Source of the DNA: an uncultured Sphingomonadaceae bacterium
GTDB taxonomy: Bacteria; Pseudomonadota; Alphaproteobacteria; Sphingomonadales; Sphingomonadaceae
NCBI GenBank assembly: GCA_947493955.1
Contig: CANLSQ010000002.1
Coordinates: 496,001-560,000 of the forward strand
Direction of reading: 5' to 3'
Length of the DNA stretch: 64,000 bases
Positions 17,123 to 64,000 of the stretch are shown here, one piece after another (position 1 is the stretch's first letter; every line of letters begins with the position of its first letter). Under the pieces are notes generated by a model that saw only the letters and a program-made list of their open reading frames with translations, did not search any database and had not been told where the DNA came from. The position numbers and the translations under genes are program-made.

Positions 17123-17201
17123 TTCTGCGTTTCCTTCAATGTATATTTCGATTGCATATCGCCAGCTACACTCTAAAATCTTTCTGAAACATGAATATTT
17201 T

Positions 17202-52425: not shown

Positions 52426-53039
52426 GACGTCATCACGCCCCTGACTCGCAAATAATCGAGCAAATGAAGCAGTGGCAGACCCATGATTGTAAATTGATTC
52501 CCCTTGATGTCTGAAAAAAGCTGCACGCCGCGGGCTTCAATCTCATAACATCCAACACAATGGCGGATATTATCCCATTCTGCTTCAACATAGCTTTCAA
52601 TAAACGTCTCGCTTAATGGGCGCATGGTCAAAGTTGCGATATCAACATGCCGCCAGACTGGAGATCCCTGATCTGCGATCACCGCTGCACTGAATAGTTT
52701 ATGCTTCTTACCGGATAGCAATTGTAAATGTGCCTTGGCGTCATCGCGGTCCAATGGCTTATCAAGCATGGAGCCGTCTTCCAGCGCAAGAACCTGATCC
52801 CCGCCAAGCACCAGCGCCGGACCGATCCGCCGCGACAAGCGTACGGCTTTTGCTTCGGCCAGCGCGTCAGCCAGATTCCGCGCCGTGACACCATCAGCTT
52901 GCAAACCGTCTTTCAGAGCCTCCTCGTCAACATTCGGCGCAAGAGACTCAATGACTACACCTGCCGCTTCGAGCATGGCACGCCGTGCTTTGCTCTTTGA
53001 GGCCAGAACAAGCATGGGTTCCGTCACCGGATCATCCAT
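52422..53039 (-). CDS. Maf-family nucleotide pyrophosphatase
   Basis: 205-residue Maf/YceF-type house-cleaning pyrophosphatase: LASKSKARRAMLEAAGV at the N terminus, PALVLGGDQVL with the metal-binding Asp, and CVGCYEIEARGVQLFSDIKGNQFTIMGLPL. Which nucleotides it clears (7-methyl-GTP or dTTP/UTP type) cannot be told. ATG 53039 overlaps the ppsR end by 8 bases; ATG 53048 is also in frame. Confidence 0.92.
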   Translation of the reverse strand: MDDPVTEPMLVLASKSKARRAMLEAAGVVIESLAPNVDEEALKDGLQADGVTARNLADALAEAKAVRLSRRIGPALVLGGDQVLALEDGSMLDKPLDRDDAKAHLQLLSGKKHKLFSAAVIADQGSPVWRHVDIATLTMRPLSETFIESYVEAEWDNIRHCVGCYEIEARGVQLFSDIKGNQFTIMGLPLLHLLDYLRVRGVMTS

Positions 53040-53877
53040 TGCCCTCATCCTTCACGCTTTTCGTCGAGCTAATGTGGCGCTCATTATAGAAATTTATGAT
53101 TGCTGCTGCGGATTCCTCAATCGAACGCCGCGTCACATCAATCGTCGGCCACCCGTTGTCCGCAAACATGCGCCGTGCATATTGGATTTCCGCCTTCACC
53201 TTTTCCTCATCTACATAGTCCGTTTCCGGTGCCTGATTGAGAGACAATAGCCGGTTACGCCTTACCTGTACCAATCGGCCGGCGCCTGCCACCAATCCGA
53301 CTACCAGAGGATTTTTCAAATGATACAGCGCATCCGGTGGCGGTGATTCCGGGACAATCGGGATATTGGCGGTCTTATAGCCCCGATTTGCGAGATAGAT
53401 TGATGTCGGCGTTTTCGATGTGCGCGAAACACCTGCCAGAACAATGTCTGCCTCTTCCCAATTTTCCCAACCAATCCCGTCATCATGGGCGATGGTGAAC
53501 TGAATCGCTTCGACCCGCTCAAAATAGGCGGCATCCAGTATATGTTGGCGACCTGGACGCGCTTTCGCTTCCTGACCCAGCATGTTGGACAGGGCATCGG
53601 TCACGGTATCCAGTGCTGGCACTACCGGTAGGCCCAAATGGCGGCATTCCCGTTCCAGCCGCGCCCTTATATCACTGTTTACCAACGTAAAAATAACCAG
53701 TCCCGGATTATCTGCAACTTCGACCAATATCCGGTTCAGATGGGTTTCGGAGCGCACCATCGGCCAGAAATGCTTGATAATTTCGACACCATCAAATTGC
53801 GCCAAAGCCGCTTTTGCGATATTTTCCAGCGTCTCTCCGGTCGAGTCAGACAGCATGTGAAGGTGAAGCCTATTCAT
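53032..53877 (-). CDS. Pyruvate, phosphate dikinase regulatory protein PpsR
   Basis: 281-residue DUF299 kinase/phosphotransferase that regulates PPDK or PEP synthase. N-terminal LHMLSDSTGETLENIAKAAL and the P-loop GVSRTSKTPTSIYLANRG (about residue 150) are typical. ATG 53877 borders the proposed origin; transcription runs away from it. First gene of the ppsR-maf-aroE-coaE-dnaQ cluster. Confidence 0.93.
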   Translation of the reverse strand: MNRLHLHMLSDSTGETLENIAKAALAQFDGVEIIKHFWPMVRSETHLNRILVEVADNPGLVIFTLVNSDIRARLERECRHLGLPVVPALDTVTDALSNMLGQEAKARPGRQHILDAAYFERVEAIQFTIAHDDGIGWENWEEADIVLAGVSRTSKTPTSIYLANRGYKTANIPIVPESPPPDALYHLKNPLVVGLVAGAGRLVQVRRNRLLSLNQAPETDYVDEEKVKAEIQYARRMFADNGWPTIDVTRRSIEESAAAIINFYNERHISSTKSVKDEGNG

Positions 53878-53899
53878 ACCCGCAACCCTGTGATTTCAT

Positions 53900-53908
53900 T
53901 GTGGATAA
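53900..53908 (-). promoter_or_regulatory. DnaA box 1, perfect
   Basis: TGTGGATAA on the plus strand, that is TTATCCACA on the minus strand. Confidence 0.75.
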
Positions 53909-53913
53909 AGCAA

Positions 53914-53953
53914 GGGATGAATGCGGGATTTTTGGAGCCTTCATTTTCATCCC
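53914..53953. repeat. Inverted repeat inside the origin region
   Basis: GGGATGAA (53914-53921) and TTCATCCC (53946-53953), perfect 8-bp arms 24 bases apart. Role unknown; may be a binding site for an origin-associated regulator. Confidence 0.4.
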
Positions 53954-53967
53954 CGTCATCCCAAATT

Positions 53968-53976
53968 CTATCCACA
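53968..53976 (+). promoter_or_regulatory. DnaA box 2, one mismatch
   Basis: CTATCCACA, one base from TTATCCACA. Confidence 0.55.
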
Positions 53977-53997
53977 GTCCGTCAAGTTTTGGAAATT

Positions 53998-54018
53998 TCA
54001 TCCACAGATTGTGGATAA
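53998..54018. promoter_or_regulatory. DnaA box pair 3 and 4, face to face
   Basis: TCATCCACA (53998-54006) on the plus strand and TGTGGATAA (54010-54018, perfect box on the minus strand) are separated by three bases. The arms ATCCACA / TGTGGAT are perfectly symmetric (54000-54016). Such a dyad can bind two DnaA molecules. Confidence 0.7.
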
Positions 54019-54133
54019 TGGGGACCAAATTCGGGAATCGGTAAAATTTTCGTTAACAGCCATCTGTCAATCTGTTTGTAATCTCGGTAGAGCAGCGTTA
54101 CCGCCTCTTTCCACGCTCTATCATCATCAACAA

Positions 54134-54161
54134 GATTCTATAAATATACTATATTATTATA
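54134..54161. other. AT-rich unwinding-type tract
   Basis: 26 of 28 bases are A or T, just before hemE and 115 bases from the DnaA dyad. It may be the DNA-unwinding element of the origin and also contains promoter-like TATA runs for hemE. Confidence 0.5.
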
Positions 54162-54179
54162 TGGGATGATCCTTATCTT

Positions 54180-55214
54180 ATGTCTGACGGTACCGACTCT
54201 CCAAAAATTTTGCTCAACACCCTGCACGGCAAGAAACAAGACCAAACGCCCGTCTGGCTTATGCGTCAGGCCGGACGCTACTTGCCGGAATATCGAGAGC
54301 TGCGCGCACAAAAAGGCGGTTTTTTGGAACTTTGCTACGATGCGCAGGCAGCTGCAGAGGTAACCATACAACCGATAAAGCGATTTGGCTTTGACGGAGC
54401 GATCCTGTTTTCCGACATTTTGATCGTGCCCCATGCCATGGGTCAGAAACTCTGGTTTGAGACGGGAGAAGGACCCCGGCTGGCACCAAGGCTCGTCGAT
54501 GCTGCTTTATCTTCTCTCGAGGCTGCTCCGGAGCATTTTGAGGCTATTTATGCCACGGTGCGCAGTGTCGCTTCGCAGCTGGATGATAAAACCACCTTCA
54601 TGGGCTTTGCCGGCAGTCCCTGGACCGTCGCAACATATATGGTGCATGGGCAGGGCAGCAAGGATCTGGGTGTCGCGCGGCGCTATGCTTATAGCGATGA
54701 AGCGGCTTTTTCAGAGCTGATCAGCGCGATCATCGATAATACCGTTACCTATCTGCTTGGTCAGATTGATGCAGGCGTCGATGCGGTGCAGCTTTTCGAC
54801 AGCTGGGCAGGATCGCTTTCTCCTGCGCAATTTGAAAAATGGGTAATCGCCCCCAATGCAGAAATCATATCACGGCTGAAAGCTGCCCATCCCGATCTGC
54901 CGATTATCGGTTTTCCCAAGGGAGCAGGGGCCAAGCTGGCTGCTTATGCCAATGAAACAGGCGCCAATGCCATCGGCCTGGATGAAACGGTAGATCCGGT
55001 CTGGGCCCATAAAACCCTGCCAGCCGACCTGCCGCTGCAAGGCAATCTCGACCCTCTTGCCCTGATTGCAGGTGGACAAGCGTTGGAAAAATCGGTCAAA
55101 AATATCTTGCAAGTCTTTGAAGATCGCCCGCACATTTTCAATCTGGGTCACGGGATTTTACCTGACACGCCCATTGAACATGTGGAAAAGCTGCTTACAC
55201 TTGTCCGGCAATGA
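54180..55214 (+). CDS. hemE: Uroporphyrinogen decarboxylase
   Basis: Heme-pathway enzyme converting uroporphyrinogen III to coproporphyrinogen III. 344 residues. RQAGRYLPEYRELRAQ, FDGAILFSDILIVPHAMG, FAGSPWTVATYMV and FNLGHGILPDTP are characteristic. ATG 54180 borders the origin. Its stop overlaps the hemJ start (ATGA). Confidence 0.97.
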   Translation: MSDGTDSPKILLNTLHGKKQDQTPVWLMRQAGRYLPEYRELRAQKGGFLELCYDAQAAAEVTIQPIKRFGFDGAILFSDILIVPHAMGQKLWFETGEGPRLAPRLVDAALSSLEAAPEHFEAIYATVRSVASQLDDKTTFMGFAGSPWTVATYMVHGQGSKDLGVARRYAYSDEAAFSELISAIIDNTVTYLLGQIDAGVDAVQLFDSWAGSLSPAQFEKWVIAPNAEIISRLKAAHPDLPIIGFPKGAGAKLAAYANETGANAIGLDETVDPVWAHKTLPADLPLQGNLDPLALIAGGQALEKSVKNILQVFEDRPHIFNLGHGILPDTPIEHVEKLLTLVRQ

Positions 55215-60958: not shown

Positions 60959-60974
60959 TGTTCCACGTGGAACA
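60959..60974. promoter_or_regulatory. parS site 1 (ParB-binding)
   Basis: Perfect 16-base palindrome TGTTCCACGTGGAACA, matching the near-universal parS consensus, right after the mnmE stop (60955). Symmetry extends one base on each side (CTG...CAG). Confidence 0.92.
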
Positions 60975-62917: not shown

Positions 62918-63535
62918 ATGACCGAACAAGAGGCGCAGGACTGGTTGCGCAAAACATTCGATGTTCCACGTGAAACATGGGATCGGTTGGAGCATTTCCT
63001 GGCAATATTGGCAGAAGAAATGCAGCGCCAAAACCTTATCTCCAAATCGAGCGCGGACCATGTCTGGGAGCGCCATGTTGTCGATAGCGCACAACTTCTA
63101 CTCCACGCCCCCAAGGGCGAAGGCGACAAAATTTGGATGGACCTTGGGACCGGCGCTGGCTTTCCCGGGATCATCATTGCCATATTGGGTGACTATAAGG
63201 TGCAGATGGTTGAATCACGCACCCGGCGGATAGCCTTTCTGGAATCTGTCGTGGCAAAACTGGGGCTGGCCGAAAAAGCCTTGGTTTTTGGGGATCGATT
63301 GGAGAATGTTGAAAGCCATTCCGTCGATGTCATTAGCGCCAGAGCTTTTGCCCCGTTGCAAAAATTGCTTTCACTTTCGCACCGGTTTTCCACAGAAAAT
63401 ACGGTTTGGCTCTTACCAAAAGGCAAAAATGCGGTAAGGGAGTTAAAAGGTCTATCCCCAAAACGGCAAAAAATGTTCCACGTGGAACAAAGTTTGACCG
63501 ACCCAGAAGCGGGAATATTGGTGGGATTGGGCTGA
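62918..63535 (+). CDS. rsmG: 16S rRNA guanine-527 N7 methyltransferase
   Basis: 205-residue SAM-dependent GidB/RsmG methyltransferase. SAM motif WMDLGTGAGFPGIIIAIL, RIAFLESVVAKLG and VISARAFAPLQKLLSL. ATG 62918 lies 7 bases after the mnmG stop; an in-frame start upstream overlaps mnmG. Two parS sites (62962 and 63474) are inside the coding region, fixing its codons there. Confidence 0.95.
   Translation: MTEQEAQDWLRKTFDVPRETWDRLEHFLAILAEEMQRQNLISKSSADHVWERHVVDSAQLLLHAPKGEGDKIWMDLGTGAGFPGIIIAILGDYKVQMVESRTRRIAFLESVVAKLGLAEKALVFGDRLENVESHSVDVISARAFAPLQKLLSLSHRFSTENTVWLLPKGKNAVRELKGLSPKRQKMFHVEQSLTDPEAGILVGLG
62962..62977. promoter_or_regulatory. parS site 2 (ParB-binding), inside rsmG
   Basis: TGTTCCACGTGAAACA, a one-base asymmetric match to the parS palindrome, overlapping codons for VPRET near the rsmG N terminus. 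Confidence 0.9.
63474..63489. promoter_or_regulatory. parS site 3 (ParB-binding), inside rsmG
   Basis: Perfect palindrome TGTTCCACGTGGAACA in the 3' part of rsmG, coding FHVEQ, 89 bases before parA. Confidence 0.93.
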
Positions 63536-63577: not shown

Positions 63578-64000
63578 ATGGTCCGGATAGCGATAGCAAA
63601 TCAAAAAGGCGGTGTTGGTAAAACAACAACAGCCATAAATATGGCTACAGCTCTTGCCGCTAGTGGATGGAAAGTTCTGTTGATTGACCTCGATCCGCAG
63701 GGCAACGCGTCCACAGGACTGGGTTTGAATCAAGCGGAACGCACGCATAGCAGCTATGATCTGCTGATTTCTGATACACCATTGGTGGATTGCGTCATCA
63801 ACACTCCTGTACCAGGCCTAGATATTGTGCCAGCCGTTGTTGATCTTTCAGGAGCTGAAGTGGAGTTGGTCGAGTTTGAAGAACGCACCCACCGGCTGAA
63901 AAAAGCGCTTGATGCCGGCGATGATGGTCAGTGGGACATCTGCCTGATCGATTGCCCACCATCTCTTGGATTGCTGACGCTCAATGCCATGGTTGCGGTC
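63578..64000 (+). CDS. parA: Chromosome partitioning ATPase ParA, 3' end cut by window
   Basis: The first 141 codons are visible. Deviant Walker [19 protein letters not shown], Walker A' [17 protein letters not shown] and Walker B-region [16 protein letters not shown] identify the ParA/Soj ATPase that, with ParB and parS, separates origins. ATG 63578. parB is expected to follow beyond the right edge. Confidence 0.95.

Follow-up and report, generated by a model that had tools for sequence, protein, structure and literature searches.

The 302-bp gap at 53878–54179 of the 64,000-bp stretch of DNA analysed here (the window) is predicted, with near certainty, to be the main-chromosome oriC of a Parasphingorhabdus-like sphingomonad. 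This assignment follows from the sequence anatomy of the gap, with its cluster of DnaA boxes, and from conservation, the GC-skew minimum and the gene context, all of which support the placement of the origin between ppsR and hemE in the initial annotation, as well as from the parS-like sites and the parA-like gene nearby. From the sequence we infer that DnaA would bind, the DNA would melt and replication would begin within the gap. The origin is of the ordinary hemE-type alphaproteobacterial kind and not of the CtrA/IHF-controlled Caulobacter subtype; its less ordinary parts are a short element typical of the family and a methylation site at a fixed distance from DnaA box 4 (Table 1). An oriC at this place would fix origin-relative coordinates for the whole chromosome. 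The window corresponds to C2:496001–560000 of an assembly of 3.4 Mb in 8 contigs, for which skew was computed on stretches, and its genus is most likely Parasphingorhabdus, since the closest HemE proteins among named relatives are those of Sphingorhabdus sp. EL138, uncultured Sphingomonadaceae isolates, Parasphingorhabdus flavimaris and P. marina.

Table 1. Features of the predicted origin and its surroundings (window positions)
Feature	Position	Strand	Basis or remark
PF03618 kinase/pyrophosphorylase gene (ppsR of the initial annotation)	53032–53877	-	profile match
Predicted oriC, intergenic, 302 bp, 40% GC	53878–54179		divergent flanks, box cluster, skew minimum
DnaA box 1, TTATCCACA	53900–53908	-	box scan; exact
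Conserved block GGATAAAGCAAGGGATGAA, overlapping box 1	53903–53921		identity of 90% or more at each column, 29 genus sequences
DnaA box 2, CTATCCACA	53968–53976	+	box scan; one mismatch to TTATNCACA
DnaA box 3, TCATCCACA	53998–54006	+	box scan; one mismatch to TTATNCACA
DnaA box 4, TTATCCACA, most constant box	54010–54018	-	box scan; exact
GANTC (CcrM-type target), 16 nt after box 4	54035–54039		conserved spacing
CtrA-like pair of half-sites, TAAA-N7-TTAA (TTAA-N7-TTAA with one mismatch)	54042–54056		motif scan
Sphingomonadaceae origin element, here GTCAATCTGTTTGTAA	54066–54081	+	family-wide motif count
Weak DnaA-box-like CTTTCCACG beside AT-rich tract; family consensus TATCCACG	54107–54115	+	family alignment; putative function
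AT-rich tract, proposed DNA unwinding element	54123–54162		base composition
Second GANTC in origin	54134–54138		motif scan
hemE	54180–55214	+	profile match
Cumulative GC-skew minimum of window	54251		72 bp into hemE
parS-like palindrome TGTTCCACGTGGAACA	60959–60974		motif scan
parS-like site TGTTCCACGTGAAACA	62962–62977		motif scan
parS-like palindrome TGTTCCACGTGGAACA	63474–63489		motif scan
parA-like ATPase gene, cut by window end	63578–64000	+	141-aa fragment, below every NCBIfam cut-off

Gene context and conservation of the gap

The gap is flanked by genes that diverge from it, which agrees with the switch of gene direction described at the outset, and the two flanks are those of a hemE-type oriC: hemE on one side and, on the other, a member of PF03618, which we take to be the same as COG1806. 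The claimed likeness to the neighbourhood of the Caulobacter origin extends to both flanking genes. The name ppsR holds in its general sense, as the protein passes the cut-off of the NCBIfam model for PPDK/PEP-synthase regulators at large, but it fails the specific PpsR model (148.2 bits against a cut-off of 350). Passages of the literature, including PMC4741004, likewise place sphingomonad and Caulobacter origins beside hemE.

The divergent PF03618–hemE arrangement was present in 56 of the 58 genomes, our own included, in which hemE was matched (out of 60 searched), in 79 of the 80 loci kept out of 251 in a scan of named genomes (locus L154 was dropped), and in 34 of the 40 loci examined at class level. 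The last sample comprised the best 40 of 92 matched genomes other than our own (93 genomes with a match), and six loci were dropped because no PF03618 homologue turned up in the 1.8-kb piece. None was present in pieces L039, L096 and L100 either; L100 and L035 come from opposite ends of a single genome, and L101 duplicates L017. For counts by taxon we used a genus set of 29 sequences and a set of 63 origins from other Sphingomonadaceae genera (L123–L182 minus L154, plus L030–L033), assigned by HemE similarity together with record titles or a kinship label. The genus set, which collapses to 9 sequences at 85% identity, excludes three genomes called the same genus, G020 and G022 (no hemE match) and G015 (HemE 47–51% identical), and the family counts leave out L103–L122, mostly from the same genomes as the genus set; L149 and L157 within the family set are two contigs of one MAG. 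Across the genus the gap measures 300–303 bp in 28 of 29 sequences, our own included, and 315 bp in one, a spread that shows how constant the hemE origin is.

Some individual assemblies call for comment. G020 (99% complete, 2 contigs) contains dnaA and gave no match to hemE or origin DNA, perhaps because of an assembly gap at the origin. G015, called the same genus, carries its divergent HemE in two adjoining pieces (G015:C22:4131–5136) and is likely a mixed or misplaced assembly; its sole match to the origin region (L102, G015:C22:4168–4402) is hemE coding sequence (71% identity), not gap. In G006, a single contig (C1), hemE is split into fragments at both ends, consistent with a circular chromosome opened inside hemE.

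DnaA boxes and the AT-rich tract

All four DnaA boxes attributed to the gap were recovered, two of them exact and two with one mismatch to TTATNCACA. The window contains no excess of boxes at up to one mismatch (37 versus 33.6 expected), and for that reason we rejected them as stand-alone evidence; it is their clustering, not their frequency, that makes the boxes in the gap a signal. The window has 25 TCCACA cores, of which only the four in the gap lie within 150 bp of another, and the 26 exact copies of TTATCCACA in the 3.4-Mb assembly include a single close pair, at C2:549900 and C2:550010, with the next closest about 10 kb apart (by eye). A cluster beyond chance of this kind is a mark of hemE-type oriC.

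Comparison of origins confirmed that the boxes are conserved in sphingomonad genomes. The core of box 4, TGTGGAT, is present in 29 of 29 congeners, and box 1 shifts within the genus: its offset is 23, 36 or 47, and some sequences lack a TCCACA core at that place. The conserved block that overlaps box 1 may consist of weak DnaA-box-like repeats. To the left of box 1 our sequence reads TGTGATTTCA where the family consensus (84-sequence alignment) has TGTGGATAAG, from which it appears that one box there has decayed while its neighbour became strong.

The AT-rich tract, too, is as first described: 40 bases from 54123 contain 6 G/C, the lowest count of the window, tied with 40-mers starting at 17185–17188. 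On base composition this would supply the AT-rich unwinding element of a hemE-type oriC. By eye we found no consistent run of DnaA-trio repeats beside the tract, and the window held no Rfam match at the gathering score. A single exact DnaA box, set within an AT-rich stretch, also lies upstream of dnaA (L001, G000:C2, about 326–1105), where it may serve autoregulation.

GC skew, parS-like sites and the position of dnaA

The base at which the cumulative skew of the window is lowest is also the minimum of the larger region C2:480001–600000. In the one-contig congener G031, the skew minimum over 360 kb (2.06–2.42 Mb) falls at 2263816, inside hemE (2262878–2263909). On coarser sampling, the G031 skew turns from negative to positive in the interval 2.1–2.2 Mb and becomes negative again in the interval 0.1–0.3 Mb; single 20-kb stretches are noisy, with values such as +0.018 (2.22 Mb) and -0.041 (2.24 Mb). 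The GC-skew minimum that marks hemE-type oriC is, on regional minima, found at hemE in both the window and G031. Our own dnaA is located at the start of the same contig (C2:1105), 549 kb from the gap, with skew visible on one side only. At the G031 dnaA (2848412) there is no skew flip, as all six surrounding stretches over 2.78–2.90 Mb are positive, and we rejected an origin at dnaA on this ground.

Within the whole assembly, parS-like sites with two mismatches or fewer number three, and all lie 6.8–9.3 kb to the right of the gap: the first is beside mnmG, the second in rsmG and the third before the parA-like gene. Together with the start of that gene, they would represent parA and parS of the parAB/parS region that lies near a hemE-type oriC.

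An alternative that we consider very improbable is that the gap merely serves hemE and the PF03618 gene as a divergent promoter region, its DnaA boxes acting in transcriptional control, and that replication starts elsewhere, for example near dnaA. DnaA does double as a transcription factor, as PMC8739904 describes, and the gap contains two sigma-70-like matches directed at hemE where shuffles expect 0.6 (sd 0.8). An exact DnaA box is also found upstream of dnaA (C2:326), but there is only that one near dnaA and no pair. Moreover, skew is at its minimum at hemE in two genomes, the dnaA of G031 lacks a flip, and the parS-like sites are near hemE, all of which speaks against this alternative.

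A putative methylation site at fixed spacing from box 4

The GANTC that follows box 4 by 16 nt is shared by all 29 genus sequences (28 GAATC, 1 GACTC), and at 16–17 nt it occurs in 30 of 32 scorable origins from other Sphingomonadaceae (16 GACTC, 14 GAATC), under a scoring rule that was set after inspection of a first listing and that left 31 of the 63 other-genus origins without a scorable box 4. Selection on a methylase motif would give such a pattern, as the middle base changes while the outer bases stay fixed. The 63 other-genus origins contain 257 GANTC sites, about threefold the 82.1 (sd 8.7) of dinucleotide shuffles, at a density of 12.4 per kb versus 2.3 in the flanks; after sequences more than 85% alike were dropped, 51 origins had 228 versus 68.0. 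Neither GTNAC (34 vs 41.4) nor GATC (79 vs 100.0) is enriched in the 63 origins. CANTG (36 vs 98.6) and CTNAG (12 vs 48.3) fall far below the shuffles, which are thus an imperfect null. Within our own genus the excess is weaker (65 vs 39.0 expected; 18 vs 10.9 in the 9 de-duplicated sequences) and GTNAC is raised too (33 vs 18.0; 8 vs 6.1 de-duplicated). Outside the family the excess is modest in 34 class-level origins (105 vs 71.2), and in 22 origins from other families of the order 26 of the 47 sites (29.6 expected) come from two close genomes. These two (L050 and L051, from G051:C23 and G039:C1, one genus) each have 13 GANTC in a 439-bp gap, against 0–3 in the other 20. Over the window as a whole (1–64000), GANTC is depleted to about half of the shuffled expectation (138 vs 279).

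The genome encodes a GcrA-type gene and a CcrM-type gene whose product scores 616.9 bits against NF050803, below the 830 cut-off of this Caulobacter CcrM model, and is matched over residues 45–391 of 398. According to passages of PMC3973325, Caulobacter CcrM is not required for initiation control, though its overproduction gives extra chromosomes, and passages of PMC11514494 state that excess CcrM in Agrobacterium changed ori2 but not ori1 numbers significantly. Among the matches listed in the literature search, titles and abstract openings contained no report of the GANTC–box spacing or of the family element in sphingomonad origins.

A family element and a CtrA-like site

Further towards hemE is the element, whose 14-bp core GTCAANMTGTTNGY occurs in 77 of 92 Sphingomonadaceae origins (29 of 29 in the genus, 48 of 63 in other genera). 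It is present in 0 of 22 origins from other families of the order and in 1 of 34 class-level origins, where the single case (L194, G069) itself belongs to the Sphingomonadaceae. In each set the shuffles yield 0.00 cores on average. A looser form is found in 29 genus and 51 other-genus origins, always on the hemE strand and 92–119 bp before hemE. The 16-bp form GTCAANMTGTTNGYAA, ending YAA, occurs in 19 of 29 genus and 35 of 63 other-genus origins and has one exact match in our own genome, at the origin. Allowing one mismatch adds four more and makes it no commoner than a reversed control (5 vs 6), so origin-specificity is limited to the exact 16-bp form. Two candidate explanations were rejected: IHF as ligand, as the core TCAA-N4-TT resembles an IHF site but the element in our own origin is more than one mismatch from the full consensus, and a promoter reading leftwards that would use TTGAC on the complementary strand of the element, for which no -10 match was seen by eye and none came out of the promoter scan. 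The element may bind an architectural protein or an unassigned regulator, or it may be part of the hemE promoter.

Between the fixed GANTC and the element is the CtrA-like site, which 24 of 29 genus sequences have at the same place with at most one mismatch. Anywhere in the gap, TTAA-N7-TTAA with at most one mismatch occurs in 25 of 29 genus sequences versus 6.66 expected from shuffles, and a perfect copy in 8 versus 0.28. The other 29 origins of the first set include 5 with such a site anywhere versus 10.6 expected, and in the 63 other-genus origins it turns up somewhere in 10, with a single perfect copy, in L172. Perfect sites are not enriched in the genome (16 versus 63 for the reversed pattern), so the case for CtrA rests on position, not frequency. 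The genome encodes ctrA (NF045991, 422 bits, cut-off 350). As the 29 genus sequences are closely related, the site at the origin is suggestive only. In passages of PMC8116508, an influence of CtrA on replication is shown for Sphingomonas melonis, yet loss of ctrA carried no growth cost; passages of PMC4468827 state that CtrA sites are not seen in origins other than those of Caulobacter and possibly Rickettsia, and our search found no literature on CtrA binding sites in a Sphingomonas oriC.

Readings other than initiation control were weighed for these additional parts. We think it somewhat improbable, though far from negligible, that the hemE promoter, under GcrA/CcrM-type transcription control, includes both the fixed GANTC and the element. 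The distance of the element from hemE, 92–119 bp in the origins having it, and the presence of a GcrA gene would suit such a promoter, as would, by eye, TTAACA, 18 nt and TGTAAT over the element stretch of our own sequence, a combination that is outside the scan rule (A at position 2, second hexamer). The family consensus, however, has no clear promoter hexamers at the element (by eye), the two promoter-like matches of the scan lie away from it, and 59 of 61 scorable origins keep GANTC at the fixed spacing from box 4. As for the CtrA-like site, the chances seem to us evenly divided between function and an AT-rich coincidence retained through recent common descent. The stretch is AT-rich, and the genus set shrinks to 9 at 85% identity; at least two mismatches are present at that place in 5 of 29 sequences (our own has one), and 0 of 32 other-genus origins with a scorable box 4 have the site there, none coming closer than four mismatches. 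Recurrence at one place in 24 of 29, with 8 perfect copies, speaks against coincidence when set beside the 6.66 and 0.28 that shuffles give anywhere in the gap, and so does a perfect TTAA-N7-TTAA 97–111 bp upstream of the start codon of ctrA itself.

A model for initiation at the hemE gap

If the gap is oriC, as we favour, DnaA would bind the four boxes, among which box 4 is the most constant, together with weaker sites around them, and would open the AT-rich tract beside hemE, from where forks would leave both ways, co-directional with both flanking genes. The fixed GANTC beside box 4 would be methylated by CcrM and the origin left hemimethylated when copied, a state that could feed back on initiation or on transcription at the origin, in a genome that has a GcrA gene; the family element would bind an architectural or regulatory protein, and binding of CtrA beside box 4 is possible within this genus. 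CcrM methylation and its feedback, a protein ligand of the element and CtrA binding are put forward with much less certainty than the origin call. A bolder version, which we regard as unlikely, unites them in a control module particular to Sphingomonadaceae origins, placed after the last strong box and before the unwinding element and comprising a CcrM site 16–17 nt from the box and then an element read by a protein so far unlinked to origins, with gating by hemimethylation in the manner of Dam/SeqA and a CtrA input added in Parasphingorhabdus independently of Caulobacter. Two testable questions are thereby raised: is initiation coupled to CcrM methylation in alphaproteobacteria outside Caulobacter, and which protein reads the family element?

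Comparison with known origins

The Escherichia coli oriC, with its Dam GATC sites and SeqA, is similar in working only, in that targets of a solitary adenine methylase are clustered in an origin. It differs in methylase and motif, and Caulobacter CcrM is reported to be dispensable for initiation control. We know of no SeqA-like reader for GANTC.

Our comparisons of origins, CtrA and CcrM draw on passages of PMC4741004, PMC1914354, PMC4468827, PMC8116508, PMC2877005, PMC11514494, PMC3973325 and PMC6090056. The origins of repABC chromids and megaplasmids are reported to be GANTC-rich (PMC6090056, in part) and differ in being RepC-driven and plasmid-type, not DnaA/hemE origins. Much closer in kind, the oriC of Sphingopyxis granuli TFA and those of other Sphingomonadaceae in DoriC likewise lie beside hemE in a conserved gene order and have a DUE along with putative DnaA boxes, according to passages of PMC4741004; the same passages mention neither GANTC nor the family element, which may already be visible in the supplementary alignment of that paper.

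Caulobacter crescentus Cori (hemE/COG1806) resembles the window's origin in flanking genes, DnaA boxes and AT-rich tract, and GANTC sites are reported in Cori as well. As described in parts of the literature that include PMC4468827, Cori relies on G-boxes that are moderate and W-boxes that are very weak, and it carries an IHF site besides five CtrA sites. In place of five high-affinity CtrA sites the gap has one at most, with one mismatch in the window, and the exact IHF consensus WATCARNNNNTTR is found in 0 of 29 genus and 1 of 64 other Sphingomonadaceae origins, our own having one IHF site with one mismatch, away from the family element. Unlike Cori, the window's origin has two exact consensus boxes and an element that, among the origins examined, is seen only in Sphingomonadaceae.
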